From: a virus
Length of the DNA: 20,580 nt
Direction: 5' to 3' (one strand)
Virus record (IMG/VR): IMGVR_UViG_3300022858_001568
Coordinates: 1 to 20,580 of that record
Position 1 is the first letter of the stretch, and each line of letters starts with the position of its first letter. Positions 794-14,632 of this stretch are shown one piece after another. The notes under the pieces were generated by a model. That model made no database searches and was not told the origin of the DNA. It was given only the letters and a program-made list of their open reading frames with translations. Both the position numbers and the translations under genes were made by a program.

Positions 794-2356
794 ATGAAGT
801 ATAGAAATTTTGTAGTATCTGTTTTTGTGTCACTTTTGCTTGTGATAGGCACAAATGCTTTTGCTACGGACTATTACAGGCCTTGGGTGAAGACTCAGGA
901 CCTGACCGTTATGAATGTCCCCGTCTTCGAAGCTGGACTCGGCATCGAAACCAGTGGCAACGTCTGGTATGTCGATTCAGGCGCTTCTGGTACAGCGGCT
1001 GGGACCTCATGGACCAATGCGAGTCTGACCGTTGATGCTGCTATCAATTTGGCGACTGCTGCAAACGGAGATCTTATTCGTGTAGCGGCAGGACATGCTG
1101 AAGCTTACACTGCGGCTAATGGGTTTGATTTAGACAAAGCTGGTATAACCATTGTTCACGAAGGTTCAATAGGCGCTCAAGCAACTTATACCTATTCCGA
1201 TACCGATGCAACTATTGCGGTTGGTGCTGCTAATTGTCGTATTTTTGGTGGCCGATATCTCGCAGGTATAAGCGGAGTAGTGATCGGGATCGCTGTTGAA
1301 GCTGGCGGAGATGATTTTGAACTTATCGATGCGGTATTTCCAGAGCCTACAACTTCGTCATGGGAGTTCGTTGATACGATTGATCTCGCTGCCGGAGCAG
1401 ATGGAGTGAAGATAATCCGACCGGTTCAGTTTACAGCTGATGCCGTTGGTGCAGCTCATTTTATTGATGCTGGCAATGGGGTTAACAATAATCTCTCAGT
1501 TATCACTCCGTATCTGTATGGAGAATATTCAGTGAGTGCGATCTGGTCTGATACCGTCGATCTTGAGGTATTAATTCAAGGTGGTTGTATAACCAACTTG
1601 ACTGATGGCCAACATGCAATCGAGTTTACTGGTGCGGCATTAGGATCAATAAAGGACATCCTCGTTCGAACCGATGTCCAGACTACTGCCGTTGATCCTG
1701 GTTCACTCACTTTGTCAAACGTCGTATGGGACGATGATGAAGTAGCTGATTCAACCTCAAGCCCGGTTGTGTTGGGTGCTGATGGTCCGGCGACGATAGG
1801 ACAAATTGATAGCACTACGACTGATAGCGTTCATGGAAAGATCGGAACCGATGCGGAGATGGGAGATGCGTCTTTGTATGATCAGTATATTGCTGATCAG
1901 ATTGACCTTGATGCGATCTTATATAATCAGGAAAAAGTTATTTCGGTCTCTGCTGATGAAATAACCGCTGACCTGTTTGACGTTGACGGTGGAGCGATTC
2001 TGATTAAATCAATCGTCGGTTATGTGTCTGCCGTTGTTGGATCTAACGCAACCACTGCTCAGTTGATTGTGGATCGAGATGATTCAACTACGGACACTGA
2101 GTTTACAACCGCAGTTGCCATAACTGATGACCCTGTTGGAACCGTTTATGCCTTTTCCGATGCTAATCCGGCTGTATTAACTCCGCTGGAACCGGGTGCT
2201 ACTGGTTTGTCGACATTGATGTCTTCATGGTTTTGTCCTGAAGGAATGATTGAGCAGTTGATGAGTGCTGATCCTGGTGGAGCTGCAACTGATCATATCA
2301 CATGGTATATGACGTATGTACCATTGGCTGCCGGTATTACCGTAACTGCTCAGTAA
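794..2356 (+). CDS. Sec signal-peptide protein with beta-helix-like N-terminal half, downstream of capsid gene
   Basis: 520 residues. The N-terminus is a textbook Sec signal: basic MKYR, a hydrophobic core at about residues 6-19, then a small-residue end with NAFA, giving likely cleavage after residue 24. Residues 56-160 contain NVWYVDSG and IRVAAGHAE, a pattern I associate with right-handed beta-helix repeats in phage and surface proteins (from family memory, not a search). Residues 160-380 remain beta-rich with turn residues D/N/G. The last 130 residues look like a separate beta domain. No catalytic residues stand out. AAAGGAGG (780-787) sets the ATG at 794. Position right after the capsid gene would suit a decoration protein, but the signal peptide argues for export to the periplasm or surface. 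Function is uncertain. Confidence 0.6.
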   Translation: MKYRNFVVSVFVSLLLVIGTNAFATDYYRPWVKTQDLTVMNVPVFEAGLGIETSGNVWYVDSGASGTAAGTSWTNASLTVDAAINLATAANGDLIRVAAGHAEAYTAANGFDLDKAGITIVHEGSIGAQATYTYSDTDATIAVGAANCRIFGGRYLAGISGVVIGIAVEAGGDDFELIDAVFPEPTTSSWEFVDTIDLAAGADGVKIIRPVQFTADAVGAAHFIDAGNGVNNNLSVITPYLYGEYSVSAIWSDTVDLEVLIQGGCITNLTDGQHAIEFTGAALGSIKDILVRTDVQTTAVDPGSLTLSNVVWDDDEVADSTSSPVVLGADGPATIGQIDSTTTDSVHGKIGTDAEMGDASLYDQYIADQIDLDAILYNQEKVISVSADEITADLFDVDGGAILIKSIVGYVSAVVGSNATTAQLIVDRDDSTTDTEFTTAVAITDDPVGTVYAFSDANPAVLTPLEPGATGLSTLMSSWFCPEGMIEQLMSADPGGAATDHITWYMTYVPLAAGITVTAQ

Positions 2357-2366
2357 GCAAGTAATC
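2354..2366 (+). repeat. 13-nt string shared by two consecutive intergenic regions (copy 1)
   Basis: TAAGCAAGTAATC begins with the stop codon of the preceding signal-peptide gene. The identical 13-mer recurs at 2855-2867, in the next intergenic region inside a predicted RNA fold. Shared intergenic strings in a compact phage genome can mark regulatory or recombination sites; no role is proven. Confidence 0.4.
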
Positions 2367-2418
2367 ATAAACAAAATTTATAAACAAGATCCATAAACAA
2401 AATTTACAAACAAAATTA
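2367..2418 (+). repeat. Four tandem copies of a 13-bp AT-rich unit
   Basis: The units are ATAAACAAAATTT (2367-2379), ATAAACAAGATCC (2380-2392), ATAAACAAAATTT (2393-2405) and ACAAACAAAATTA (2406-2418). Copies 1 and 3 are identical and copies 2 and 4 are diverged. The array fills the gap between a stop codon and the ribosome binding site at 2420-2425. The resulting leader is A-rich and largely unpaired, which could help ribosome loading on the following gene. The tandem arrangement is also prone to slipped-strand copy-number change. Confidence 0.65.
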
Positions 2419-2431
2419 AAGGAGGATGATT

Positions 2432-2809
2432 ATGAAAGGAGATCCTGGAGTAAATTACGACATAGATGATGATGGCTATCCGGCTTTAAGCCGGGGAGCT
2501 AATACGTATTTAACGGAGTCATTAGATCATGGGAAGGCTCCGTCAGTTTCGTACTTCATCTCATGCGGAGCATGGGCGTCTTCGTTCGTTGCGACGTTGC
2601 AGTACAGTGATAATGACAGCGACTGGACTGACGAGACGGCGGGTGCTGGCAATGATATCAGCTTGACGTTGGAAGCTGCCGGTAATGGCACGATTCATGT
2701 GCCTAATCCCAGAGGAAGGTACAGTCATCTGAGCATTGTGACTGGTGGAACCTGCGTATTCAGTGTAACCAGTGTATTGGGGCCATTGCGTTCAGTTTCA
2801 TCCGAGTGA
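2432..2809 (+). CDS. Small beta-rich phage protein, possible head decoration protein
   Basis: 125 residues from the ATG at 2432. An upstream in-frame ATG at 2426 is rejected because it abuts the ribosome binding site AGGAGG (2420-2425); the 2432 ATG has the normal 6-nt spacing. The protein is acidic and beta-rich: an N-terminal segment with DIDDDGYP, then a core with SYFISCGAW, FVATLQYSDNDSDW and a late strand containing RYSHLSIVTGG. Small proteins with this W-containing beta core are often found beside HK97 capsid genes. I infer a decoration or head-stabilising role from position and size, but no assigned family supports that. No signal peptide or membrane segment is visible. Confidence 0.55.
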   Translation: MKGDPGVNYDIDDDGYPALSRGANTYLTESLDHGKAPSVSYFISCGAWASSFVATLQYSDNDSDWTDETAGAGNDISLTLEAAGNGTIHVPNPRGRYSHLSIVTGGTCVFSVTSVLGPLRSVSSE

Positions 2810-2824
2810 TGGAATAGTTAATTT

Positions 2825-2893
2825 GAAAATTGCGGGATAGGGACTTAAGCCTGATAAGCAAGTAATCCTGAACTTGTTTCCCGCAAATTTTTC
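2825..2893 (+). ncRNA. Candidate three-way-junction RNA fold upstream of the HNH gene
   Basis: TTGCGGGA (2830-2837) is perfectly complementary to TCCCGCAA (2879-2886). The stem can extend by AAAA (2826-2829) pairing with the T-run at 2888-2891 past one bulged A. Inside lie two adjacent hairpins: CTTA/TAAG (2844-2847/2855-2858) and CAAGT/ACTTG (2859-2863/2872-2876). Both loops contain CCTGA. The T-run after the outer stem also resembles a terminator tail, although the enclosed 41 nt are long for one. It lies just before the endonuclease ribosome binding site (2910-2915). Phage homing-endonuclease genes are known to be held back by leader hairpins, so control of that gene is a reasonable inference. 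Fold energies were not computed. Confidence 0.45.
2855..2867 (+). repeat. 13-nt string shared by two consecutive intergenic regions (copy 2)
   Basis: TAAGCAAGTAATC, identical to 2354-2366. Here it spans the junction of the two inner hairpins of the predicted RNA fold: TAAG closes the first hairpin and CAAGT opens the second. Copy 1 lacks the surrounding complementary arms. Confidence 0.4.
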
Positions 2894-2920
2894 TCAGGGA
2901 TGATTCTACAGGAGGAATTG

Positions 2921-3634
2921 ATGATGAAAACTTGTATGATTGATGGTTGTGACAATAAACATTTGGCTAAAGGATACTGTAGAAAGCACTATCTGCGATG
3001 GAGGAAACATAACGGAGAAAAAATTTGTAAAGTTGATGGATGCGAAAATTTTGTGAAGGCATTGGGATACTGTATTAAACATTATACTCAATTTAGTAGA
3101 CACGGTAAGATATTAAGTCGTACGATCTATGATAGAAATGAAATACATGAAGAGAATGGAACCTATCGAATGAAACTGTATGATAAAAACGGCAAAGTGA
3201 TTGCTGAGACTTTCTTTGATGGAGAAAATCTTAATGAGATTAAAAAACATAAATGGCATAATAAATGTGGATATGTTTATACGATCCATGGTGGTGAGAA
3301 GCTGAATTTATCTAATTTTGTAAAAGGCGATTTTGAGCACAAATATATGTTTGATCACAGGGATCGGATTAAGCTGAATAATTTATCTAATAATTTGCGT
3401 GAAGTGACTTATTCACAGAATGCGATAAATCAAGGCATTCGATCAGATAACAATAGTGGTATTGTTGGTGTGGGTTGGGACAAAAATAAAAATAAATTTC
3501 GTGCTCGTATAGTTGTTGATGGTAAAGAAATTTTCCTTGGTAGGTTTGCAGATTTGCAAGACGCAGCAGAAGCCAGACGCCAAGCTGAAATGAAATACCA
3601 TGGAGAATTTTCTCCTAATTTTAGATCGGGATGA
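2921..3634 (+). CDS. Free-standing HNH endonuclease with C-terminal AP2 DNA-binding domain
   Basis: 237 residues from ATG 2921, which is placed by AGGAGG at 2910-2915. An in-frame ATG at 2900 is upstream of that site and is rejected; ATG 2924 is an alternative. Two metal-binding-like repeats (C5, C10, C20, H23 and C36, C41, C51, H54, spacing C-x4-C-x9-C-x2-H) open the protein. An HNH core follows with D145-H146, D148, N153-N154 and N158-L159-R160. Residues about 180-229 form an AP2-like beta-strand/helix domain (GIVGVGWDK, FLGRFADLQDAAEA). HNH-AP2 proteins cut DNA at specific sites and spread into allelic sites as free-standing homing endonucleases. The gene is visibly more A/T-rich than its neighbours and interrupts the head-gene order, consistent with insertion. 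It has no structural role in the virion. Confidence 0.88.
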   Translation: MMKTCMIDGCDNKHLAKGYCRKHYLRWRKHNGEKICKVDGCENFVKALGYCIKHYTQFSRHGKILSRTIYDRNEIHEENGTYRMKLYDKNGKVIAETFFDGENLNEIKKHKWHNKCGYVYTIHGGEKLNLSNFVKGDFEHKYMFDHRDRIKLNNLSNNLREVTYSQNAINQGIRSDNNSGIVGVGWDKNKNKFRARIVVDGKEIFLGRFADLQDAAEARRQAEMKYHGEFSPNFRSG

Positions 3635-3647
3635 AGGGAGGTAAAGT

Positions 3648-4046
3648 ATGAAGATTAAAATGTTAAAAACAGAAAAGGGAAGTATAGATGGGGTCCAAGT
3701 CAAAGAGTATAAGGCTGGAGAAATATATGACATACCTCTTAGCCTTGCTATTGTTTTTGTTGACCAGCTACAGATAGCCGTGAAGGTGGAAGCGCCTGAG
3801 GTTGTCGAAGCTGAGGAACCAGACGATGTGACAGGTGAGGAAGCCGAAGAGATTGAGACTCCAGAGACTGTGAAACCTGATGTGCCGGAGGAAGTAAAAG
3901 CAGATACTCCAGAGACTGTGAAACCTGATGTGCCGGAAAAGACCAAGACCGATACCCCGGAGAAGCCTGTGGCCAAGAAGCCCAGTCCCAGTGTAAAAGG
4001 CAAAGGGCCAATGGACGATATGAAGAGGGATAAGGCTAAGAAATGA
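3648..4046 (+). CDS. Small acidic phage protein with Pro/Glu/Lys repeat tail
   Basis: 132 residues, started by GGGAGG at 3636-3641. Residues 1-50 look folded and resemble the short phage proteins that contain a KxGEIYDIP-type segment followed by a hydrophobic helix (LSLAIVFVDQL). The rest is low-complexity: a 16-residue repeat starting TPETVKPDVPE occurs twice almost exactly, with a third degenerate copy (TPEKPVAKK), and a basic end (MKRDKAKK). The tail is probably disordered. The gene overlaps the connector gene by ATGA (4043-4046), implying translational coupling. Similar small proteins sit between capsid and connector genes in many siphoviruses, but I know of no assigned function. Confidence 0.6.
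   Translation: MKIKMLKTEKGSIDGVQVKEYKAGEIYDIPLSLAIVFVDQLQIAVKVEAPEVVEAEEPDDVTGEEAEEIETPETVKPDVPEEVKADTPETVKPDVPEKTKTDTPEKPVAKKPSPSVKGKGPMDDMKRDKAKK
3858..3937 (+). repeat. Direct repeat of 32 identical bases, period 48 bp, inside a coding region
   Basis: The 32 bases at 3858-3889 recur exactly at 3906-3937, a 48-bp period that encodes a 16-residue Pro/Glu/Lys repeat. A third, degraded unit follows from about 3954. Exact identity at silent positions points to recent duplication by slippage or unequal recombination, rather than to protein-level selection alone. Confidence 0.8.
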
Positions 4047-4597
4047 CACTTGAGCTTGTGACATACGAAGATCTGAAGGCGCTCCTCGGCTTAGAGAAGG
4101 AAGCAATAAGGGATTACCCTGCGCTGAATCTCCTTAGGCCGTCTGTGACGTCGGCTATCGAGGAGCATATTGGTAGATTGCTTGAGTCAAAAGAACGAAC
4201 GGAGACGATCTATTTTGGCTCATGCAAGCAATCTATGGTATCACTGCCAGCAATTCCTATTACTGCTATTTCATCGGTCACGGTCACGATTAGTGGTGAT
4301 TCTGAGACCTATGATGAAAATGAGGAATATGAAATTACAGAATATGGGATTAAGCTCCTGACTTTGCTGTCCAGTGCGAAGATGGTTGTGGTATATACAG
4401 GAGGAATTACGGAAGCCACCAATTCGATGAATAGAGCTGCCTTATTGCAGACAGCTTATGAGTTTCAGGCTAAAGATCATATAGGTGCAAGTAGTGTCTC
4501 AGCAGAAGGAGGTAGTGTGCAAAGACCAGAGCTTGGTCTTCTGAAGGAAGTTAAAAGGATATTGAGCAAAGACAAGCATCCGCTGATGGTGATATAA
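4043..4597 (+). CDS. Head-tail connector (adaptor) protein, gp6-like
   Basis: 184 residues. The start ATG overlaps the upstream stop as ATGA. The layout suits the gp6/gp15-like connector family: N-terminal helices (TYEDLKALLGL, PALNLLRPSVTSAIEEHIGRLL), a central beta region with TIYFGSCKQSMVSLPAIPITAISSV cut short here to its LPAIPI core, then YTGGI, and a C-terminal helical part. The motif of hydrophobic residue, P, I, followed by a strand and then vYTGG is the family hallmark I rely on. Such proteins form a ring below the portal that seals the head and docks the tail. The gene ends in TAATG overlap with the next gene. The call rests on fold pattern and gene order. Confidence 0.72.
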   Translation: MTLELVTYEDLKALLGLEKEAIRDYPALNLLRPSVTSAIEEHIGRLLESKERTETIYFGSCKQSMVSLPAIPITAISSVTVTISGDSETYDENEEYEITEYGIKLLTLLSSAKMVVVYTGGITEATNSMNRAALLQTAYEFQAKDHIGASSVSAEGGSVQRPELGLLKEVKRILSKDKHPLMVI

Positions 4598-5196
4598 TGA
4601 CTCTGGGCATAGAAGTCAGGAACCTTGCAGAAATTAGTGATTATCTTAATAAGCTTCCTGATAAAACATTTGATGAGGCCAAGAAGGTATTTCAAGAAGC
4701 GGTATTAGATGCGGATAAGGAGGTCAAGCTCAGATTTTCATCTAAAATCATACATTCACGAACTGGTACTCTACGGAGGTCATTAAGAACAAGCTTAACC
4801 GGGAGCAGCCTTAGAAATTTACGGGCATCGTTTTTTAGCTCTGCTAATGTAGCTGGAGTGCCAGTGAAATACGCTCCTCTTCAGGAATTCGGTGGTGTCA
4901 TCAAGGCTATTAATAAATATTCAGGAGTACCTGGAGGTCCTTACCTTAATATCCCGACAAAATCTAATTTGACTCCTGCCGGGGTGATGAAGAAGTCTGC
5001 AAAGGAATTGTTTAATGCAGGAGCCCACATACACAAATCAAAGGCAGGGAATTGGGGAGTTTTTATAGGGGATAAGATGATGATGGTTTTGAAGAAAAAA
5101 GTTGTGGTCCCTGCTCGACTTGGTATGATTGATGCAGCAGATGATCAAATACCGACGATATTGTCGAAATTGATTGTCCTAATCGGAGAGGATTAA
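4597..5196 (+). CDS. Neck/tail-completion protein, HK97 gp10-like
   Basis: 199 residues. ATG 4597 shares its A with the upstream stop (TAATG). Visible signatures are an N-terminal helix with many K/E residues, RTGTLRRSLR (about residues 55-64), YAPLQEFGG (about 91-99) and VVPARLGM near residue 170. RTGxLrrS ... YA..qEfG ... pARpf is the pattern of the HK97 gp10-like / tail-completion family. These proteins sit between the connector ring and the tail terminator, or act in head-to-tail joining. The protein is longer than the typical 130-160 residues, with an inserted stretch (about 100-160) containing GGPYLNIP and HIHKSKAGNWGVFIG. Confidence is good for family and moderate for exact role. Confidence 0.75.
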   Translation: MTLGIEVRNLAEISDYLNKLPDKTFDEAKKVFQEAVLDADKEVKLRFSSKIIHSRTGTLRRSLRTSLTGSSLRNLRASFFSSANVAGVPVKYAPLQEFGGVIKAINKYSGVPGGPYLNIPTKSNLTPAGVMKKSAKELFNAGAHIHKSKAGNWGVFIGDKMMMVLKKKVVVPARLGMIDAADDQIPTILSKLIVLIGED

Positions 5197-5197
5197 A

Positions 5198-5689
5198 ATG
5201 ACAGATCCAGCTGTAACGACTATATTAGATGAAGTTGATGCGAGATTGACCAAGATAACGACTGCCAATGGGTATCATTATACGGTTAATAAGATAGAAC
5301 GTGCAAGACTCGAGCCATTTGCTGGATATGATTTGCCAGCCGTCAATTATTGGTGTACATCGCTTACAAATACACGTAATGTCTACAATGATGATAATAG
5401 ACAGCTTGAGTTACTCATTGAGAGTCATAGTTTGACGAGGGATGAGCCTTTCGTTGATGTTGCGAATAAGTTAGCAGCAGATATCATAACTGTGTTAAAT
5501 CGAGCTACTACTGCGCCAAAAGTATCAGATGATCCTAACTATGAGCTTGATGAGACGATATCAGATCTAATATTTCAAGGGTATGATTACATAATAGGCC
5601 AGGGAGAAAAACCATGGTGCGGTGTGCTTGTCAGGTTTATAGTAGCATATCAAACTAATCCTTATGACATGACTACATACGGTGTATAA
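5198..5689 (+). CDS. Probable tail terminator protein
   Basis: 163 residues, one base after the neck gene stop, with GGAGAGG at 5184-5190 as ribosome binding site. The N-terminal helix (TTILDEVDARLTKI), a central beta region with LPAVNYW and RQLELLIESHS, a helix (FVDVANKLAADIITVL), and a final strand pair (GVLVRFIVAYQT) match the alpha/beta plan of lambda gpU-type terminator proteins. These cap the growing tail tube and join it to the neck. Position directly after the gp10-like gene and before the tail tube supports this. Sequence identity to any named protein is not claimed. The GTG start of the next gene overlaps this stop by 8 bases. Confidence 0.62.
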   Translation: MTDPAVTTILDEVDARLTKITTANGYHYTVNKIERARLEPFAGYDLPAVNYWCTSLTNTRNVYNDDNRQLELLIESHSLTRDEPFVDVANKLAADIITVLNRATTAPKVSDDPNYELDETISDLIFQGYDYIIGQGEKPWCGVLVRFIVAYQTNPYDMTTYGV

Positions 5690-7796
5690 TTTGAAAAAAG
5701 TAGCAATTATATGTTCACCCGGTAATGACAACCATTTATCCGAAATCTCAGATTATTTCAAGGCGAACTATGAGACGAAGGTCTGTGTGACCAATGATCT
5801 TGAGCAGACATTTAACGCTGTAAAATGGGCTGACATAATTTGGATCGAATGGGCTGATAATTCAGCGATCAATGTCACACGATTTGAGCAGTTGCTGTAC
5901 CAGAAGCAGGTGATATTACGGCTTCACAGCTATGAGGCATTCACACCATATCTCGATTATATTAAGTGGTCAGCGATTACAGATTTGATATTTGTTGCCG
6001 ATCACATTAAGGACATAGTCCTCCAGAAATATCCTTGTATTGAGAAGAACGTTGATCGAATTCATATGATACCGAACGGGATTGACACTGATAGATTTGC
6101 GCTGTCACGGGTTAAAAAGGGGAAGGACCTCGCATATCTTGGTTTTCTCAATTTTAAGAAAGCGCCTGTGTTATTGTTCACAGCCTTTGCAGAGCTATTG
6201 AGCATTCAGCCTGATTATACACTCCATGTCGGAGGTGCATTTCAAGAGGAGCGATACGCTCTCTATCTCAAGCAGATGCAAGAGCAAAATCCATTGCTTG
6301 CTGGACGAATCAAATTCCATGGTTGGATAGAGAAGCCGGAGGAATGGTTGGAAGATAAGAGTCACATCGTTTGCTCTTCAGTTCTGGAAAGCCAAGGCAA
6401 AGGAATCATGGAAGCCATGGCAATGGGTTTGAAACCAGTTATTCATAATTTTGTAGGTGCTGATACAATATACCCTATCAAATATTTGTGGTCCAAGGTT
6501 TCTGAATTTTGCAGCATGATTTTGTCTGAAGAGTATGATCCGGTTGAATATAGAAACTACATAACTTCTTATTATTCTTTTTCAGATAAAATTGGGCAGA
6601 TAGAGGCGGTCATCAAAAGTCATGCAGCTCCTGTATCTACATTCATGCCTGATAACCTTGTGAAACCTATAAGGTTGTCGGTTACGATGATGATGAGAAA
6701 TGAGGAAAAACACATAGGTAGGTGTCTTGAATCTATTAAGGACATCGCTGACGAGATAGTGATTGTCGATACCGGGTCAACAGATAAAAGCATCAAGATA
6801 GCTAAGTCATACGGTGCTAAGGTTCACAGGCATCCGTGGAAGGATGACTTTTCGCTTCATAGAAATCAAGTTATTCGTCATTCAACAGGTGATTGGCTAT
6901 TGCAGATAGATGCTGATGAAGAGTTGACAGGTAATAAAGAAGGGTTGAAGAAGACATTAGCGAGGCTAAGTCCTGAATATAACGGGGTGTCAGTTAAGCT
7001 TCAGGATGTATGTCAGGAATCAGGGACTCAATTTAATGCATCACGAATTTTTAGAAATGGCAAAATCAAATATCGTAGAGCAGTCCACAATATACCGATC
7101 TATGAAGGTGCTGAGAAATTTGGAGCTGTCCTGTATAACGATGTTACAATTATTCATCATGGATCGCATTATCAAATCTCGAAGAAAGAATCTAAGAAGA
7201 AGACTAAGCGCACAGGGACATTGTTAAAAAAAGCGCTGATAAAAGATCCTGAAGACTATGAACTGCTTTTCTATCTTATGCAGTTTTATGGAACGATTGA
7301 GGATTATAGCAAGGCGATCAGCTATGGTGAGAAATATCTTGAGAGCAAGTCTCTGTGTAATGGATTCAATGAGACCGTATACTATTCTATCATCCGGTTA
7401 TATCTGGAGCAAAAGAATTATGGAAGAGCTTACAAATGGTTGATAGAAGCGCAGAGAATATTACCTGATGACTTAGATATATCTTATGTCACAACTGAGT
7501 TCGGAGTAGTTACAGGCAATGGCCAGATGCTACTCGAGGGAGCACGGAATTATCTGAAGCAATATGAGATGTTTACAAAGCGACCAGATGCAAAAGGTAG
7601 CCGTTTCATATTCTCTCAGAAGCCGGATAGCTTATATTTTGTTCTTAAGCATATGACGGCATATTTATTAGGTGATGGTGTTGATTGCTTGAGTAAATTA
7701 AAAGAATCAATAGGGTTTTTGCAAGAAGCAGATCAAGCCATTGCTGCTGAAGAAGTTAAGCAACTATTAGAACCGATTGGAGTCAGCACAAACTAA
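5682..7796 (+). CDS. Two-domain glycosyltransferase (GT4-like plus GT2-like) with C-terminal TPR-like helices
   Basis: 704 residues from GTG 5682; TTG 5691 (giving MKKVAIICSPG, with weak GGTG at 5681-5684) is an equally plausible start. Residues 1-310 resemble a GT-B/GT4 enzyme: N-terminal Rossmann-like strand KKVAIICSPG, PNGID at 131-135, and ESQGKGIMEAMAMG at 236-249 carrying the E-x7-E type donor-binding motif. Residues 332-470 are a GT-A/GT2 domain: SVTMMMRNEEKHIGRCLES, IVDTGSTDKS, and the DAD metal site at 410-412. The C-terminal 200 residues are paired helices resembling TPRs (about 515-595). GT2-TPR proteins transfer sugars in glycan assembly or onto proteins. The gene sits between tail terminator and tail tube, so virion glycosylation is an inference. 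Both catalytic halves look intact. Confidence 0.85.
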   Translation: MYNLKKVAIICSPGNDNHLSEISDYFKANYETKVCVTNDLEQTFNAVKWADIIWIEWADNSAINVTRFEQLLYQKQVILRLHSYEAFTPYLDYIKWSAITDLIFVADHIKDIVLQKYPCIEKNVDRIHMIPNGIDTDRFALSRVKKGKDLAYLGFLNFKKAPVLLFTAFAELLSIQPDYTLHVGGAFQEERYALYLKQMQEQNPLLAGRIKFHGWIEKPEEWLEDKSHIVCSSVLESQGKGIMEAMAMGLKPVIHNFVGADTIYPIKYLWSKVSEFCSMILSEEYDPVEYRNYITSYYSFSDKIGQIEAVIKSHAAPVSTFMPDNLVKPIRLSVTMMMRNEEKHIGRCLESIKDIADEIVIVDTGSTDKSIKIAKSYGAKVHRHPWKDDFSLHRNQVIRHSTGDWLLQIDADEELTGNKEGLKKTLARLSPEYNGVSVKLQDVCQESGTQFNASRIFRNGKIKYRRAVHNIPIYEGAEKFGAVLYNDVTIIHHGSHYQISKKESKKKTKRTGTLLKKALIKDPEDYELLFYLMQFYGTIEDYSKAISYGEKYLESKSLCNGFNETVYYSIIRLYLEQKNYGRAYKWLIEAQRILPDDLDISYVTTEFGVVTGNGQMLLEGARNYLKQYEMFTKRPDAKGSRFIFSQKPDSLYFVLKHMTAYLLGDGVDCLSKLKESIGFLQEADQAIAAEEVKQLLEPIGVSTN

Positions 7797-7808
7797 AGGA
7801 GGTTTATT

Positions 7809-8837
7809 ATGTCGACAAGTGCCAAAGCAAAAATCAGCATAGAAACAGGGCGGACGCTGACTGCCTACGCCAAAATGACCGATGGCGGTGCTCATGATGT
7901 GCATTATCTCGGGACTGTATGGAGTGGCTACTCCAGCGATGCAGCTGATTATGGTCCGGACGTTAGACCGAATGGTATGGTCTCAGGAAGGAATGTCCTT
8001 TCTTTGCATGCCACTGACGATACAATAACCATTGCTGGGTTCACTGCCTATTCCAAAGGCACTGAACATACAGTTGTTGCGGCGACTGGTACGTTTACCC
8101 GTGGTACAGGTCCAGGTAAGTCTAAGATCATATCTGTGACAATGGATTCAGCCGGGACGATAGCGATAGTCCCTGGAGAAGAAGGTGCTGATACAACGTT
8201 CAGCGCAGTAAGGGACGCAGCAGGAGGACCTCCTTATATCCCGGTGAACAGTGTTGAGATCGGTCAGATCAGGGTAACGTCATCAACAGCTGGAGCATTG
8301 ACTGCGGCGGAGATATTTCAGGTTGTTGGAACCAATACCCAGAGATTTGATTATCCGACTTGGGAGGAGTTCAATATTGGCAAAGGCATATTGGCTGAAA
8401 CAGCTGGTGAAAAGAATTCCCACATAAAGTTTGATTCAGTGCTCCCTGCCATACATACTGGTGGAGTAGTCAAGGAGGTATTTGTTCAATATTATACTCC
8501 TTCGTATTCTGATCTGTCCAAGACTTTGGACTTCAAGCCGTGTGAAAACTCCCCATCGGTTTCTTCAACCCAGTATTACAATGGAACCATAGCTGCGGTG
8601 TCCAGAGCGCTTGGCACTGGCGGATTCACGGCTATTATGGCAAATAACGTCTCGGATGCGCTTCTGAATGAGCAGGATAAAGTAATCACGGTAAAGTTTT
8701 ATCCTGATCGGAATAAGAATCCATTTGTCTTAACACAAGGTGAAATTGGAGTCGCCAGGACTTTCCCGGTTGCAGATCAGAATCAGGCCAGTGTAATAAT
8801 AGCCTCTGAGAATGCAAGTGTGTCATTTCTATCATAA
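7809..8837 (+). CDS. Probable major tail (tube) protein
   Basis: 342 residues, with AAAGGAGG at 7796-7803 giving a strong start at 7809. This is one of the best ribosome binding sites in the window, as expected for a gene made in high copy. The protein is beta-rich with frequent G/T/S and no signal peptide, coiled coil or membrane segment. It opens with KAKISIETG, has a central extension (ATGTFTRGTGPGKSKI) and ends with VIIASENASVSFLS. Its place between tail terminator and tail chaperone is the standard siphovirus position for the tube subunit. It is larger than lambda gpV (246 residues), so it may carry an extra Ig-like or decoration domain. The call rests on order and composition more than motif. 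Confidence 0.68.
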   Translation: MSTSAKAKISIETGRTLTAYAKMTDGGAHDVHYLGTVWSGYSSDAADYGPDVRPNGMVSGRNVLSLHATDDTITIAGFTAYSKGTEHTVVAATGTFTRGTGPGKSKIISVTMDSAGTIAIVPGEEGADTTFSAVRDAAGGPPYIPVNSVEIGQIRVTSSTAGALTAAEIFQVVGTNTQRFDYPTWEEFNIGKGILAETAGEKNSHIKFDSVLPAIHTGGVVKEVFVQYYTPSYSDLSKTLDFKPCENSPSVSSTQYYNGTIAAVSRALGTGGFTAIMANNVSDALLNEQDKVITVKFYPDRNKNPFVLTQGEIGVARTFPVADQNQASVIIASENASVSFLS

Positions 8838-8849
8838 AACGGAGGTATA

Positions 8850-9311
8850 GTGGCATTTAACACAGAAAAGTTTGGTCAGTCAAGTTTTAGCCATAGGATG
8901 GAAGACATCCCAGTCCCAGGACTGTCAGTGTTCTTTGAAGATGATGAACCGGCGATATGGCAGGTAAGAGGATTAACTGGGCATGAGTTGGCGAAGGTCA
9001 ATGAGGCTGTCAAGTTAAATAAGGATGTAGGATCGATCCTTTCCGGCATCTCGTCTGAACTACACAGCGAAAAAATAGACTCTATAAAAGAAGTGCTTGG
9101 TTTAGGGGATAATACGCCGGATGATCTCGTACGGAGGATATCGTCATTGAGGTATGGTTCAGTGATACCAGAGATTACGCAAGAGATTGCTGTCAGGTTA
9201 GCTGATTCATTCCCTACGACTTTTTTCCAGCTTACGAATAAAATATTTGAGCTTACTGGTGAAGGTAAGACTTTGGGGGAATCGAAAGCCTCTGGGGAAA
9301 TAGCGACGTGA
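8850..9311 (+). CDS. Tail assembly chaperone, short form (gpG-like)
   Basis: 153 residues from GTG 8850, with ribosome binding site CGGAGGT at 8840-8846. The protein is acidic and mostly helical after a short beta start (IPVPGLSVFFEDDEPAIWQVRGLTGHEL), has no membrane segment, and lies directly before the tape measure gene. That is the place and type of lambda gpG, a chaperone that coats the tape measure during tail assembly and is absent from the mature virion. Near its end lies a slippery heptamer (9272-9278), so a fraction of ribosomes may enter the -1 frame and make a longer form ending at 9448. The frame and gene-order logic is strong; sequence similarity to gpG itself is not asserted. 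Confidence 0.72.
   Translation: MAFNTEKFGQSSFSHRMEDIPVPGLSVFFEDDEPAIWQVRGLTGHELAKVNEAVKLNKDVGSILSGISSELHSEKIDSIKEVLGLGDNTPDDLVRRISSLRYGSVIPEITQEIAVRLADSFPTTFFQLTNKIFELTGEGKTLGESKASGEIAT
9272..9278 (+). promoter_or_regulatory. Candidate -1 programmed frameshift site (T_TTG_GGG)
   Basis: Read in the chaperone frame, the bases are T TTG GGG, which fits the X_XXY_YYZ slippery pattern. After a -1 slip the two tRNAs face TTT and GGG. The -1 frame is closed by TAA at 9266-9268 and is open from 9269 to the stop at 9446-9448. The shift must therefore happen between 9269 and 9311, and this heptamer is the best match there. In lambda and many other phages, G/GT chaperones are made this way with a -1 slip. 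Confidence 0.55.
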
Positions 9312-9448
9312 GGAATTCATTAGCTTTATGTCATGATAAGAAGTGTTTTCTCTATGAGGCAAGGCCGGACCTATTTCCGCAGGGGTTTGTAACTCAGGTG
9401 GAAATAGCGCTCTGGTCTAAATTCTACGAAGGTCTGAAAGGAAATTAA
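9308..9448 (+). CDS. Tail assembly chaperone T-domain (-1 frame extension of the upstream gene)
   Basis: This is the -1 frame relative to the chaperone. If reached by frameshift at 9272-9278, the fused product has about 199 residues (143 plus 56). Its unique part includes CHDKKCFLYEARPDLFP and ends VEIALWSKFYEGLKGN, a helical end with aromatic residues as in T-like chaperone domains. In lambda the G-T fusion recruits the tape measure while G alone coats it. An alternative is independent initiation at GTG 9308, overlapping the upstream stop as GTGA, giving 46 residues, with GGGGA at 9294-9298 as weak ribosome binding site. The coordinates given are those of the alternative; the coding potential of the frame is the common point. 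The stop is 2 bases before the tape measure start. Confidence 0.6.
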   Translation: MRNSLALCHDKKCFLYEARPDLFPQGFVTQVEIALWSKFYEGLKGN

Positions 9449-9450
9449 TT

Positions 9451-12012
9451 TTGTCTAATGTCTCAAGAATTATAGATATAGTCTTTGTTGGAACGGATGA
9501 AGTGAGTGGCACCATTGATTCAGTATCCGGGAATATGTCTGATCTTGGGAACAGGATTGAGGCTATTGCTGAACCGTTAGCAGGATTTGCTGATGATATA
9601 TTAAAAGTCGATGCTGCTTTAATGGCAGTTGCTGCTGGGGGATTAGTCTATGCCTTTGCTAAATCCGCTGAATTTGAAGCTGCCACAATTGAGCTTCAAA
9701 AAGTTATAGGTGATGAAATAGCCTTGCTCGGTGATGCGCAGAAGGCTGCTCTTGATCTATCGACTACATATGGTGAAACCAGTTCTGCAATTTTGTTGAG
9801 TACAGCTAATTTTAAGCAAGCTGGATTTACCGTTGAAGAGTCTCTAACTCTGACTAAGAATGCCATGGATTTGGTCGTAGCCGGGTCGATAGATGCGTCT
9901 ACGTCAAGTGAGCTTCTCATAGCCACATTAAAAGGATTTAAAGAACCAGCGTCAGAAGCTGCAAGATTAGTCGATATCTTGAATGAAGTATCGAATAATT
10001 ATGCGACTGATGTCGAACAACTTGCGATAGGTATGGCTACACTCTCTCCTATTGCAGATAAGATGGGATTTACTTTTGAAGAAACTGCTGGTGTTTTAAC
10101 TCCAGTGATTGAGGTATTTCGTTCAGGTGGTGAAGCTGCAATCGCATTAAAAACAGGTTTATTGAAATTAATTGATGATTCCAAGCCTGTTGCTGAAGCC
10201 CTTGCATCGATTGGAGTGTCGCAAAAAGACGCAAATGGGGAGTTACGATCCGGTAAAGATATACTCTTTGATGTAGCTACTGCCTTTAATACTGCGGAAG
10301 AAAGTGATAAATTATTTCTTGCTCAGCAACTCGTTGGTATCCATCAAGCTGGTAGGATGGTCGAAGTATTCAACGGATTAGCGCTCTCAACTGAAGTCAC
10401 AGCGGTTGCAATGGGTGCAGCCGGATCAGCTGCATTAGAAGTCGCAGCCAGATTGGAGAGTGCTGAAGTTGCTGTTAATAGATTTCAGGTAGGGTTCGAG
10501 AATCTCGGTATTATTGTCGGAGACCAATTCCGTGTAGCAACCGTGGAAGCCATTGATGGTGCTACAGAGATTGAGCTGGCCTTGCAGGGGATCGTTTCTT
10601 CTGGGACGTTTAGCCCAGTGTTTGATGCACTAAATGAGTTCAGTAGTTCGTTTGGTGATTATCTCAGAGGAATAGCAGGAGCGATGCCTGAAGCGTTTGA
10701 GGAAGTTGATTTTGATGAATTCCTTGATGCTTTTGGAAGTTTAGGGGATGAGTTTAAATCCTTCATGAGTGAATTAGATCTGACAAAGCCTGAGGATTTG
10801 GCTAAGGCAATTCAGTTTGTGCTTGACTCAATGACGAGTCTCATAGTCGTTACCAAAGGCATGGTAGAAGCTTTTGAGCCGATGGTCACAGCAACCATCA
10901 ATATGGTAAAAGGGTTCAATGCGCTTGATGATGCAGAAAAAGAATCAGCTGGTAATATACTGGGATTAGCAAAATTAGTAACTGAATTTGGAATCAAATT
11001 TGCGGCTTTTGCGATGACTATCGGTCAGCATGCTGAGCTTATAGAGACAGTCTTTAAAGACATTGCTACCACTATAGGTTTTGCATGGGATTCAATGGCG
11101 ACTTCATTTGATCTTGCATTAATCATAATAGCTGGATCAATAAGAACGTTAGTCGAGATATTTGGACTCTTGCCTTTCACGGACTGGACAGAAAATGCAA
11201 CAGAAGAATTATCGACATTCATTGATTTTCTTGGAGCAGATGTTGTAGATCGTGCAGAAGCAAATTCAGAGAGGCTTAAATACGCATTCGGGGATGTGGT
11301 TCCTGGGATAGAAGAAATGGCAGGAGCTATGGAGGAAATCCCGAGTGAAATAGATACAAAAGTGGATATCGATTCAGAGCAAGCAACAACCAAGGCTAAT
11401 GACTGGTCTGCTTTGCTTGATGATGTGACTCCACCTGATAAAACAACAGAGATAATCCTTACTACTACTGATCCAACCCCAGCTGACATAAAAAAAGAAA
11501 TTGAAGCTATTCCTTCGGAGAAGTTATTACAAATAGAGTTGCAAGGTGAGATCGACACTGAGTTGGCAAGGATAGAAGCTAATGCAGGAAATATGCAGAC
11601 CCAGTTTGAGTGGCAGGCTAAGTTAGATATAGCCGCAGCCCAAGCTAACGCAGACATAATGGATTCGATATTTGAAGGACTTGCTACTACCATCTCAAGC
11701 ACAAGTGAAAGCCTTAATACTCTCTATGGCCTGTGGGCTAACGCAGACATGTTTGACAAGAGTGATATTGAGAAGTATATAAAGGAGGAGATGGAGATAA
11801 AAGAAGAAGCACATGATTTAGAAATGAGACTCGGTGAAGCGCAGCTTAAATATATGGAGAAGCGAACTGCTAAACTTAATAAAGGCGATGCGCTGATTAA
11901 CATAAGCGCTGATGGATTGGAGCCTGCACTGGAAATGGTCATGTGGCAAATATTAGAAAAAATACAAATAAGAGCAACCGAAGCTGGTTCAGAATTTTTG
12001 TTAGGAATATAA
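9451..12012 (+). CDS. Tail tape measure protein
   Basis: 853 residues from TTG 9451, with AAAGGA at 9437-9442. The longest gene in the window, directly after the chaperones, helical and alanine-rich throughout. Residues about 60-330 have the TP901-type tape measure core: a hydrophobic segment (LMAVAAGGLVYAFAKSAEFEAA), then TYGETSSAILLSTANFKQAG, SSELLIATLKGF and MGFTFEETAGVLTPVIEVF. Further hydrophobic stretches lie near residues 510-575. The C-terminal third is charged and coiled-coil-like. The protein sets tail length and fills the tube until DNA ejection. At roughly 0.15 nm per residue, the rule for siphovirus tape measures, the full length would imply a tail of about 130 nm, an upper estimate if part is globular. 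No lytic transglycosylase or peptidase motif was seen. Confidence 0.88.
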   Translation: MSNVSRIIDIVFVGTDEVSGTIDSVSGNMSDLGNRIEAIAEPLAGFADDILKVDAALMAVAAGGLVYAFAKSAEFEAATIELQKVIGDEIALLGDAQKAALDLSTTYGETSSAILLSTANFKQAGFTVEESLTLTKNAMDLVVAGSIDASTSSELLIATLKGFKEPASEAARLVDILNEVSNNYATDVEQLAIGMATLSPIADKMGFTFEETAGVLTPVIEVFRSGGEAAIALKTGLLKLIDDSKPVAEALASIGVSQKDANGELRSGKDILFDVATAFNTAEESDKLFLAQQLVGIHQAGRMVEVFNGLALSTEVTAVAMGAAGSAALEVAARLESAEVAVNRFQVGFENLGIIVGDQFRVATVEAIDGATEIELALQGIVSSGTFSPVFDALNEFSSSFGDYLRGIAGAMPEAFEEVDFDEFLDAFGSLGDEFKSFMSELDLTKPEDLAKAIQFVLDSMTSLIVVTKGMVEAFEPMVTATINMVKGFNALDDAEKESAGNILGLAKLVTEFGIKFAAFAMTIGQHAELIETVFKDIATTIGFAWDSMATSFDLALIIIAGSIRTLVEIFGLLPFTDWTENATEELSTFIDFLGADVVDRAEANSERLKYAFGDVVPGIEEMAGAMEEIPSEIDTKVDIDSEQATTKANDWSALLDDVTPPDKTTEIILTTTDPTPADIKKEIEAIPSEKLLQIELQGEIDTELARIEANAGNMQTQFEWQAKLDIAAAQANADIMDSIFEGLATTISSTSESLNTLYGLWANADMFDKSDIEKYIKEEMEIKEEAHDLEMRLGEAQLKYMEKRTAKLNKGDALINISADGLEPALEMVMWQILEKIQIRATEAGSEFLLGI

Positions 12013-12013
12013 T

Positions 12014-12364
12014 ATGATAGCAATAACAAAATCAACTTTTGATCCTGGTGGCGCAATAGTAGTCAGGAATTATAAGAACGAATCTGAACTCCGAAATGCA
12101 ACAGCCCGTGTGAGCAAATCATCTACTTTAGATGGTGGTGTTGTAGTGATTCACAGTGGGTTTGCGGATGGAGATCGCAATATATCTATAGAGGCAGTGC
12201 TCTCGCAGAGTGTCTCAGATTCTTTATGGGAGATTTTTCAGACAGAGACTTTTGTTAATTTAGCGATCCCTGATGGGGTGTTTAGTGCTGCGATTAGCAA
12301 ATTGCAGATAGACAATGGCGATGCAAAGATGACGATGGAAATTGAATCAAAATTAAGTGTATAG
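12014..12364 (+). CDS. Small tail-associated protein of unknown function
   Basis: 116 residues, starting one base after the tape measure stop (TAATATG). There is no strong ribosome binding site between them, so translation probably depends on coupling. The protein is beta-rich: it opens with a basic-polar segment (NYKNESELRNATARVSKSSTLDGG), then strands VVVIHSG, NISIEAVLSQ, a helix (SVSDSLWEIFQTE), and ends MTMEIESKLSV. I do not recognise the family. Genes in this place usually encode distal tail or tail-tip parts that attach to the tape measure end, which is the best inference. No signal peptide, Cys pair or catalytic motif is visible. Confidence 0.6.
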   Translation: MIAITKSTFDPGGAIVVRNYKNESELRNATARVSKSSTLDGGVVVIHSGFADGDRNISIEAVLSQSVSDSLWEIFQTETFVNLAIPDGVFSAAISKLQIDNGDAKMTMEIESKLSV

Positions 12365-12371
12365 GGAAGAT

Positions 12372-12527
12372 ATGGATGAGCAAAGTAAAGTAGGGAGTCG
12401 GTTTGAAGCGGAATTATGGCGTGATGGTAAGCTTGTTATAGATAAACCAAAACATCACAATTTCCTGATTGTTAAGAAAAACGAGGTCATAAAAATTGAT
12501 CTGAAGAGGAGCCGAGATGAAAAATGA
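12372..12527 (+). CDS. 51-residue small protein sharing an N-terminal WRDGKL module with the next gene
   Basis: ATG 12372 follows AGGGAAG at 12363-12369. The frame reads 51 codons and stops at 12525-12527, overlapping the next gene by 11 bases. Residues 10-22 run RFEAELWRDGKLV. The next protein has VEHWRDGKLL with the W at the same residue number (16), so the N-terminal modules align without a gap. After that this protein diverges into a basic, lysine-rich end (FLIVKKNEVIKIDLKRSRDEK). It may be a truncated paralogue or a separate small tail protein. The good ribosome binding site, coupled spacing and shared module together support it as a real gene. Confidence 0.62.
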   Translation: MDEQSKVGSRFEAELWRDGKLVIDKPKHHNFLIVKKNEVIKIDLKRSRDEK

Positions 12528-13041
12528 TGCGATTATAACTACCACATGGGACGTCGAACATTGGAGAGACGGTAAACTACTTGAGCGGACTATTGACAGC
12601 AATGTCTGTACGGCAGAGGGACTAAATCAGTTGCTGCGCATCATGTTTACGGGTGGCACCCCGATACCGTTATTGAACTGGTATGTCCTCATCTTTAACA
12701 CTGACACTTCACCTGCTGATGGTACAACCTATGCTACCCCGGTTTTCACCGAGGAAACTGATTATGATTCAGCAACACGGCCTTTATGGGAAGGCGGAGC
12801 AGTGGCAGCAAAGAGTGTGACCAGTAGCTTAAATAAAGCGACGTTCATATTTGATGCAACCTCTGACGGTCACACTATTTATGGTGGTGCTCTTGTTGGT
12901 GGAGATGGTGCAGATGTCAAGGGTGATGAAGCTGAGGCTAAGGGTAGACTTTATTCTGCAAGCAAGTTTGACAGCGCAAAACTTATTGCAGATAATGACA
13001 CTCTCAAAGTGACCGTAACACTGACGGCAGCAGACGCATAA
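12517..13041 (+). CDS. Phage structural protein of the WRDGKL type (probable tail-tip or fibre-associated protein)
   Basis: 174 residues, with AAGAGGAG at 12503-12510. The pattern WDVEHWRDGKL near residue 16, NVCTAEGLNQLLRIMF, LNWYVLIFNTD and ATRPLWEG is one I associate with small structural proteins near the distal tail of environmental phages. No enzymatic motif is present. The rest is beta-rich with a repetitive G/A/D segment (GGALVGGDGADVKGDEAEAKG). The overlap with the preceding 51-residue gene and the 28-base gap to the next indicate a single transcription unit. Exact role is unknown; a tail-tip or fibre-base component is an inference from position. Confidence 0.6.
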   Translation: MKNDAIITTTWDVEHWRDGKLLERTIDSNVCTAEGLNQLLRIMFTGGTPIPLLNWYVLIFNTDTSPADGTTYATPVFTEETDYDSATRPLWEGGAVAAKSVTSSLNKATFIFDATSDGHTIYGGALVGGDGADVKGDEAEAKGRLYSASKFDSAKLIADNDTLKVTVTLTAADA

Positions 13042-13069
13042 AGATAACCTATTGGCTGAAGGATAAATA

Positions 13070-14632
13070 ATGGCTGTTACTTGGAACCCATTAGATAAAT
13101 CAAATTATTTTACCCTTACAAATGGGGATCTGACTGCTGCCAATACGCTTGGAAATAGCCATGTTAGTCTACGGGCTACTGACTCTAAATTAAGTGGTAA
13201 ATGGTATTGGGAAATCCACATAGACAATTCACCTTCTGATGTACAATTCATAGGAATAGGTACATCGAGTGCTGTTCTCAATAATAGACTGGGATGGGAT
13301 ACGAATAGCTACTGTTATCTTTCTGATGGTAGAAAAGATTATAACAACGATTTGTTAAGTTATGGGGATTCTTTTGTCGAAGATGATATTATAGGAATTG
13401 CACTTGATTTAGATAACGGGAAACTTTATTTTTCTTTAAATGGAGTGTGGCAAAATTCAGGTGATCCTGTTGCTGGTACTGGCTTTGCTTATGATGGTAT
13501 TTCAGGTACCTTTTTTCCGATGGTGTCTGTATATTATAAGAATGATAGTTTTACTGCTCGATTTTTCAATACTGATTGTACATATTCTTCACCAACAGGA
13601 TTTAGTTATTTTCCCGTTGTTCATGAATTGGAAATCACTGAAGCTTCTGGGCTATCTGACGTGATAACTCCTGACCTCCTTGTCGAGACATTAGCTGAAG
13701 CTGCTGGATTATCTGGCGTGATAACTCCTGACCTCCTTGTCGAGACATTAGCTGAAGCTGCTGGATTATCTGGCGTGATAACTCCTGACCTCCTTGTCTT
13801 AGAGATAATCAACGCAATAGGTCTCAGCGATACATTGAGTGTAGAAGCATCATTGTCTATATTATTGGCTGAGACTATCGGATTATCTGATTCAGTGATT
13901 CCTGACCTCTTTGTCGAGATATTAGCAGAAACTGCCGGTCTGAATGATACCGTCGATAGAGACTATTATTTTTATAAGACAATTGCAGAAGCTGTTGGAC
14001 TAAATGATGTGATAGGTGTTCAGGCTGATTGGTTGATGACACTCCTTGAATCTGCTGGATTAGCCGACGTGATAGCCTCTTTTAATTGGACGCAATGGCT
14101 TTTACAAAATGAATATAAAGCAACCAAACGATATTACCTGACTTTGACTGGTGAAGATGATGATACGACTGACATTGTGATTCCAATGAAATCATTTCAA
14201 GGCAGACTTAGAGATGGCGATCCTACATATCTGTCTTGTGTGATTCCAGGAGCAGAATATGCAGCGCAAATAAATGCCCGGTCAAACGGTGATTTGATAG
14301 TTGAAATGGCTTATTTGATTGATGGTGTCGAACAATATAAAGAACAACTCGTGATAGTTGATTTGGAAACTATTAGGGTTGATGAAGGAGCTAAAAATCA
14401 ATCGATTACATTATCAGGACATAGAACAGAAAGTTTTGTAACCAAAGAAGTGATCTTAGATGGGGCATCATATTATTACATAAGTGGTGGAAAATATCAT
14501 TACAGGCTTGCGAAAGTTGATATGTATTTAAAACCGGGGGATACGGTTGAGGTCAATGGCGATTCATTCACCGTTGATGTAGTAACTTATTTTGTCAGTG
14601 TTAAAAGGCAGCAAATGGAAATCTCAGAATAA
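13070..14632 (+). CDS. Distal tail protein: SPRY-like domain, eight degenerate repeats, C-terminal tail domain
   Basis: 520 residues, with AAGGA at 13059-13063. Residues about 1-183 are a SPRY/B30.2-like beta-sandwich: GKWYWEIHID, IGIGTSS, IIGIALDLDNGKLYFSLNG and a late FFPMVSVYY. SPRY domains bind proteins or other ligands and are uncommon in phage tails. From residue 191 come eight units of 19-20 residues with core E-A-x-G-L-S-D-V-I; the first three are nearly identical in DNA too. Residues about 341-520 form a further domain (LLQNEYKATKRYYLTLTG, IPMKSFQGRLRDGDPTY) that resembles distal tail/baseplate parts. The protein is likely a tail-tip or receptor-recognition component with a repeat spacer. 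It ends with TAATG overlap into the next gene. Confidence 0.65.
   Translation: MAVTWNPLDKSNYFTLTNGDLTAANTLGNSHVSLRATDSKLSGKWYWEIHIDNSPSDVQFIGIGTSSAVLNNRLGWDTNSYCYLSDGRKDYNNDLLSYGDSFVEDDIIGIALDLDNGKLYFSLNGVWQNSGDPVAGTGFAYDGISGTFFPMVSVYYKNDSFTARFFNTDCTYSSPTGFSYFPVVHELEITEASGLSDVITPDLLVETLAEAAGLSGVITPDLLVETLAEAAGLSGVITPDLLVLEIINAIGLSDTLSVEASLSILLAETIGLSDSVIPDLFVEILAETAGLNDTVDRDYYFYKTIAEAVGLNDVIGVQADWLMTLLESAGLADVIASFNWTQWLLQNEYKATKRYYLTLTGEDDDTTDIVIPMKSFQGRLRDGDPTYLSCVIPGAEYAAQINARSNGDLIVEMAYLIDGVEQYKEQLVIVDLETIRVDEGAKNQSITLSGHRTESFVTKEVILDGASYYYISGGKYHYRLAKVDMYLKPGDTVEVNGDSFTVDVVTYFVSVKRQQMEISE
13640..13798 (+). repeat. Tandem 57-bp repeat within the SPRY tail gene
   Basis: Units lie at 13640-13696, 13697-13753 and 13754-13798 (the third matches for 45 bases, then diverges). 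Units 2 and 3 are identical over the shared part, and unit 1 differs at a few positions. Each encodes 19 residues of the form E-A-A-G-L-S-G-V-I-T-P-D-L-L-V-E-T-L-A. Five more units, diverged in DNA but visible in protein, continue to about 14090. Near identity of the first three marks recent expansion. Confidence 0.88.

Follow-up and report, generated by a model that had tools for sequence, protein, structure and literature searches.

The siphophage record analysed here encodes a double glycosyltransferase (GT) in a gene that directly precedes the gene of the major tail protein (MTP), the subunit of the tail tube. Sequence comparisons and structure models make it probable that this enzyme, expressed late, modifies the phage's own tail-tube subunit, the GT2 domain adding the first sugar and a partner elaborating it. 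Its relatives keep such enzymes beside the same tail-tube gene, and it is therefore likely that these phages put sugars on their own tails.

The window, the whole 20,580-base stretch that was analysed, is a virus record with head-tail and tail genes of a siphophage. The genes follow the order capsid C-terminal part, head-tail adaptor (4043-4597; phrog_442), neck or tail completion protein (4597-5196; phrog_5), tail terminator (TT, 5198-5689; synteny and a weak match to phrog_5078, E 8e-4), GT (5682-7796), MTP (7809-8837; 342 aa), a gene here called g8850 (8850-9311), tape measure protein (TMP, 9451-12012; PF10145, 1.5e-34; phrog_4211) and tail-tip genes, those with coordinates being on the + strand. 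The g8850 gene, which has homologues in MTP-family loci, occupies the position expected of a tail chaperone. The first-pass annotation had placed a 704-codon reading frame between the tail terminator and the MTP at exactly these coordinates, with the MTP ATG 12 bases past the GT stop, and this arrangement stands. The GTG start of the GT gene (5682) overlaps the tail-terminator stop by 8 bases; an alternative TTG start (5691) agrees with the start of the L007 homologue. The Shine-Dalgarno-like AAGGAGGT of the MTP gene (7796-7803, + strand), with AAGGAGG upstream of the ATG, overlaps the GT stop codon. The overlap at the front of the GT gene, the short distance to the MTP start and the Shine-Dalgarno-like sequence over the GT stop suggest that terminator, GT and MTP form one late translation unit. 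The GT-MTP gene order is not due to chance, because the order terminator-GT-MTP recurs in four relatives at GT identities of 54-71%, and each half of the GT has a dN/dS of about 0.1, a sign of purifying selection.

Elsewhere in the window, an HNH endonuclease gene (2900-3634) lies between 2426-2809 and 3648-4046; it is probably a homing insertion, since it is missing from the same place in relatives L006 and L007. Near-exact internal repeats (AEAAGLSGVITPDLLVETL) occupy positions 13621-13812 inside the tail-tip protein encoded at 13070-14632. Tail terminators with extra inserted segments (234-286 aa vs 163) were seen in L009 (4901-5761), L024, L038, L041, L044 and L051, several of them GT+ phages.

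The enzyme consists of a GT4-type half, a GT2 half and a TPR-like tail, as had been proposed from the letters alone, and the motifs then pointed out are all in place. Pfam profiles match Glycos_transf_1 (3.2e-10, residues 135-259), Glycos_transf_2 (1.1e-20, residues 333-467) and, weakly, TPR_19. The GT4-type half (residues 1-320; 5682-6641) shows 45-47% identity to Desulfobacterota GT4 domains and matches GT-B structures in the PDB. It carries PNGID (131-135), ESQGKGIMEAMAMG (236-249) and an EX7E motif (E236/E244; 6387-6413) kept in 13/13 aligned members; a GT-B fold with EX7E is characteristic of the retaining GT4 family. The GT2 half (residues 331-500; 6672-7181), of GT-A type, carries IVDTGSTDKS and the DXD motif DAD (410-412; 6909-6917). 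Its residues D363, R394, N395, D410 and D412 are kept in 21/21 aligned members, and H469, N470, H492 and R510 in 22/22. The tail (residues 501-699; 7182-7778) is all-alpha in the AF2 model. A GT-A GT2 domain, a DXD motif and a helical or TPR C-terminal region are the features of the SunS/GmaR-like GT2-TPR class, and the nearest solved structures by sequence are those of GmaR (best phmmer match for the GT2 domain, E 3e-25) and SunS/ThuS (E 3e-24). The AF2 model (25 homologues; pLDDT 89, pTM 0.82) shows both a SunS-like GT-A and a GT4 GT-B fold. In a Foldseek comparison with the PDB, the peptide glycosyltransferases SunS and ThuS rank highest (E 3e-20 to 6e-19), ahead of GT4/GT-B enzymes such as BshA. 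By every computational test applied (folds, kept EX7E and DXD motifs, and selection on both halves), the gene is predicted to encode a working two-domain enzyme. Its relatives and its linkage to the MTP suggest that it would glycosylate side chains of peptides or proteins.

The MTP family is represented by 121 distinct loci in scans of IMG/VR, whose entries are fragmentary sequences from uncultured phages. A GT2-TPR enzyme was found in 25 of these, a fraction that is not a prevalence since the search seeds were rich in GT+ members and the sample is biased to the window's lineage. In all 25 the enzyme gene is beside the MTP gene (upstream in 16, downstream in 9), and at most one gene, an LbetaH hexapeptide acyltransferase in three loci (L038, L101, L106), comes between them. 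Thus the linkage to tail genes, a point on which the initial proposal could have failed, is kept in the four syntenic relatives and in 25/25 GT+ loci. The surveyed stretches hold one further GT, that of L049, 5.6 kb off. In whole records, PF00535 was matched in 7/7 GT+ and 0/12 GT- phages, and the record of L099 has two additional GT2s elsewhere. Among the inserted ORFs of at least 100 aa in the MTP-flanking slots, most encode a GT, a sulfotransferase or an acyltransferase. Iterating a GT4 profile made it drift into GT2 proteins, and direct profiles were used in its place. Among INPHARED isolates there are two MTP-family members (MW202621, Marinobacter PS3), and neither has a GT beside the MTP. 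A phage-encoded GT conserved with virion genes, a feature of phage virion glycosylation systems, is present here; the two GT folds and the kept tail-gene linkage favor the dedicated virion-glycosylation system that the first-pass annotation had suggested.

Other genes were also observed next to the MTP gene. A lysozyme-like gene directly adjoins it in L076 (1053-1472), L082 (1032-1451) and L091 (7484-7903). In L125, of a lineage otherwise without GT, a methyltransferase, a phosphoribosyltransferase-like and a possible GT8-like ORF (the last without a Pfam match) lie directly upstream of it (5889-7944).

The presence of the GT follows the MTP more closely than it follows the neighbouring genes. 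The MTP tree gathers 24 of the 25 GT+ rows, all but L063, into one group of 29; the remaining rows of the group are one contig that ends right after the MTP and a four-member clade without GT. For the same 76 taxa, GT presence changes 3 times on the MTP tree, 8 times on the g8850 tree and 9 times on the TMP tree; for 59 taxa it changes 7 times on the TT tree vs 4 on the MTP tree. The GT thus appears tied to the MTP rather than to the region. As several of these loci have the GT downstream of the MTP, linkage alone would give the MTP no advantage over its downstream neighbour. Seven adjacent structural proteins had been named as possible acceptors in the initial proposal; the idea of a virion acceptor is retained, but not its spread over seven proteins, and the MTP is singled out because GT presence follows the MTP lineage whichever side of the MTP the GT occupies. 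In the GT2 tree made for counting origins, the deep forks lack resolution and branches are long, and the tree is compatible with one origin or several; domain extraction had cut two of its rows down to short pieces.

The GT2-TPR part of the system is constant and its partner varies: i) a fused GT4 domain in 11 loci, all of one MTP clade; ii) a sulfotransferase, either fused (L068 and L110 by Pfam; L042, L049 and L051 by their aligned PRS-loop and LVRxPL motifs) or encoded separately across the MTP from the GT (L054, L098, L099); and iii) a hexapeptide acyltransferase in the three loci named above. L044 and L063 have a GT2-TPR enzyme with no recognised partner. The separate sulfotransferase genes are directly downstream of the MTP (L098, 6941-7567; L099, 9041-9676; L054, 8428-9063), with the GT2-TPR gene directly upstream. 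Since the two sulfotransferase groups fail to match each other in profile searches, more than one gain of the partner seems likely.

The MTP belongs to phrog_30644, which is labelled "unknown function", and its AF2 model (pLDDT 91) resembles the tail-tube structures of lambda gpV, T1 and NF5. A suggestive candidate for the acceptor residue is Ser114 (codon 8148-8150, + strand), located in a predicted beta-hairpin (113-117) at the turn between strands 106-112 and 118-122. Column 114 holds Ser (23) or Cys (2) in all 25 GT+ rows. The four-member GT- clade that is sister to L110 has Asp or Glu there, and the other GT- rows are mixed, Ser also occurring in 48/86 GT- MTPs. The GT- part of the MTP tree shows 27 switches between Ser/Cys and other residues; the GT+ part, with 22% of the length, shows none (p 0.0011, uncorrected, for the best of about 340 columns). 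A comparable column was sought in four neighbouring proteins (g8850, TT, TMP and neck) and none was found. An independent-pairs test of GT against Ser/Cys114 yields 3 pairs, with which significance is impossible; the GT changes about 3 times on the MTP tree. ThuS modifies both Ser and Cys, in loops (PMC6405829), and the Ser-to-Cys exchange at position 114 would fit SunS/ThuS chemistry. The C-terminus of the MTP was considered as a mycobacteriophage-like acceptor and rejected; it is serine-rich and conserved, but equally so in GT- MTPs.

In the mechanism we propose, the late-expressed protein glycosyltransferase would act on the MTP, the product of the next gene. Its SunS/GmaR-like GT2 domain with the TPR-like tail would bind newly made MTP and transfer a first sugar onto a Ser, Cys or Thr side chain, the best candidate site being Ser114, in the hairpin of an insertion domain of the tube fold. 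A second sugar would then be attached by the fused GT4 domain; in relatives the second step would instead be sulfation by the sulfotransferase or acylation by the hexapeptide acyltransferase. The benefit might be a tail shielded from antibodies, proteases or decoy binding, or stabilised. We infer the acceptor protein and residue, the sugar, the order of steps, the enzyme activity, the host and the benefit alike. A broader version is offered tentatively, as a possibility we would not yet favor: an interchangeable tail-tube cassette of uncultured siphophages, in which a constant GT2-TPR enzyme primes an exposed Ser/Cys114 and an exchangeable second enzyme completes a lineage-specific disaccharide, sulfated or acylated sugar, the whole derived from flagellin glycosylation and co-evolving with the tube protein.

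The GT might instead act on a different protein synthesised alongside the MTP. That it glycosylates a different virion protein (capsid, tape measure or fibre), its place at the MTP being a tolerated insertion slot, is unlikely. Morons often settle in tolerated gaps, GT2-TPR clusters lie beside the major capsid gene in podovirus MW202524 and in L021, and a few other genes (the lysozyme-like genes of L076, L082 and L091, and those of L125) use the MTP-flanking slots; yet the sizeable insertions in these slots are mostly GT, sulfotransferase and acyltransferase genes, GT presence tracks the MTP better than it tracks TT, g8850 or TMP, and the GT is found on either side of the MTP while always adjoining it. 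The same tracking of MTP sequence rather than neighbouring genes argues against modification of host surface structures or flagellin for superinfection block or serotype conversion, which we regard as quite unlikely. There is ample precedent for phage GTs acting on host antigens, and the window GT has bacterial homologues at flagellin loci and a weak GtrB-like PHROG match (phrog_841, E 6e-4). This match is the only trace of the gtrA/gtrB/gtrC serotype-conversion set among the annotated window genes, which include no GtrA- or GtrC-like gene beside the GT, and the late structural operon position and translational overlap to the tail terminator and MTP also speak against it.

A very unlikely reading is that the GT acts on the MTP only in transit, as a folding or assembly checkpoint with no role for a virion glycan. 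The TPR-like tail could serve as a chaperone and the GT gene is directly upstream of the MTP gene, against which stand the catalytic residues kept in both domains and the partner enzymes, which imply an elaborated product. Glycosylation of hypermodified phage DNA is highly improbable and was not favored. Phage GT-A and GT-B enzymes acting on DNA exist; their systems are expected to include a pyrimidine hydroxymethylase or equivalent, and thymidylate-synthase-like genes occur in two of nine GT+ records (G003, G006). However, the other seven, including the 75-kb G002, have no PF00303 match (parts of these records may be missing), the nearest matches by structure are peptide glycosyltransferases, and neither the sulfotransferase and acyltransferase partners nor the MTP linkage fits DNA.

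The bacterial homologues bear on where the proposed MTP-modifying enzyme came from. Desulfobacterota genomes have matches of 45-47% to the GT4 half and 35-41% to the GT2 half. L204 encodes both a TPR-GT4 and a GT2-TPR protein directly before flagellin and FliD, and L206 encodes a GT41/GT2-TPR protein directly before flagellin. The latter (4805-8803) is a single 1333-aa protein joining TPR, GT41 (OGT-like) and GT2 domains. The simplest reading of these sequences is that the phages probably acquired the module from a bacterial locus for flagellin glycosylation and that it now travels with the MTP. MTP-family copies were found in 3/86 genomes of the family of the L096 genome, those examined being without an adjacent GT; a search for a prophage of the GT+ clade found none. 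Because such GT-less MTP relatives occur in genomes of the same family, there are hints that these phages have Desulfobacterota hosts.

Few phage isolates are known to have glycosylated virions, and it took mass spectrometry to identify the acceptors. In the present case gene order, congruence of trees and a covarying residue point to one acceptor protein and one candidate residue, which makes acceptor and site a question that two genes in E. coli could test. The exchange of GT4 for sulfotransferase or acyltransferase suggests that tail surface chemistry diversified like that of bacterial flagellin glycans. Sulfated sugars on a phage tail, if true, would be new relative to the literature found, and relaxed SunS-like enzymes modifying folded tube subunits could serve protein engineering.

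SunS and ThuS share with the window GT a GT-A fold, a helical C-terminal part and a conserved DXD, and are its best fold match (E 3e-20). Their substrates are small bacteriocin precursors and they lack a GT4 domain, whereas the window GT2 is fused to GT4 and linked to the tail tube. The features of a glycocin locus (small precursor peptide, SunT-like transporter and thiol-disulfide genes) are absent around the window GT, whose neighbours are tail genes. GmaR, the Listeria GT2 that is both flagellin glycosyltransferase and antirepressor, is the best GT2 sequence match and likewise acts on a filament subunit, but it is bacterial, also binds the repressor MogR and has no GT4 fusion. The Desulfobacterota enzymes of L204, L205 and L206 share the similar GT4 domain and a protein-subunit context, with both enzyme types beside flagellin in L204, but are separate large chromosomal proteins with N-terminal TPRs and methyltransferase or GT41 domains.

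Podovirus MW202524 and virus contig L021 also have GT2-TPR and GT4 enzymes beside the gene of the most abundant virion protein; there it is the capsid, not the tail-tube gene, and in L021 the domain order is reversed (GT2-TPR-GT4). In MW202524 (L189) a GT2-TPR gene, a second GT and a GT4-like gene (1656-7307) follow the major capsid gene at a short distance, a set that may correspond, for the capsid, to the tail cassette. The L021 sugar-gene cluster (7977-14992) is inserted in another phage, where it separates connector genes from a probable capsid gene; it comprises the GT2-TPR-GT4 fusion, a probable aminotransferase and epimerase, and more GTs.

The mycobacteriophages Che8, Corndog and Myrna are a known case of the same kind, as their phage-encoded GTs glycosylate virion capsid and tail-tube proteins (Freeman et al. 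2023, as cited in PMC12619734, PMC12363180 and PMC11256854). In the Che8 relative Maravista the GT genes are near the genome end (PMC11256854). The mycobacteriophage sites, as described in PMC12619734 and PMC12363180, are C-terminal, unlike the proposed MTP residue 114; neither a link to the window MTP family nor a fusion of the GT4-GT2-TPR type nor partners of the sulfotransferase or acyltransferase kind are reported in these two papers or in PMC11256854. The literature search found no report of MTP-linked GT, sulfotransferase or acyltransferase cassettes. Virion glycosylation as such is already known from mycobacteriophages, and what would be new here is its form, a GT fusion linked to the MTP with exchangeable partners.
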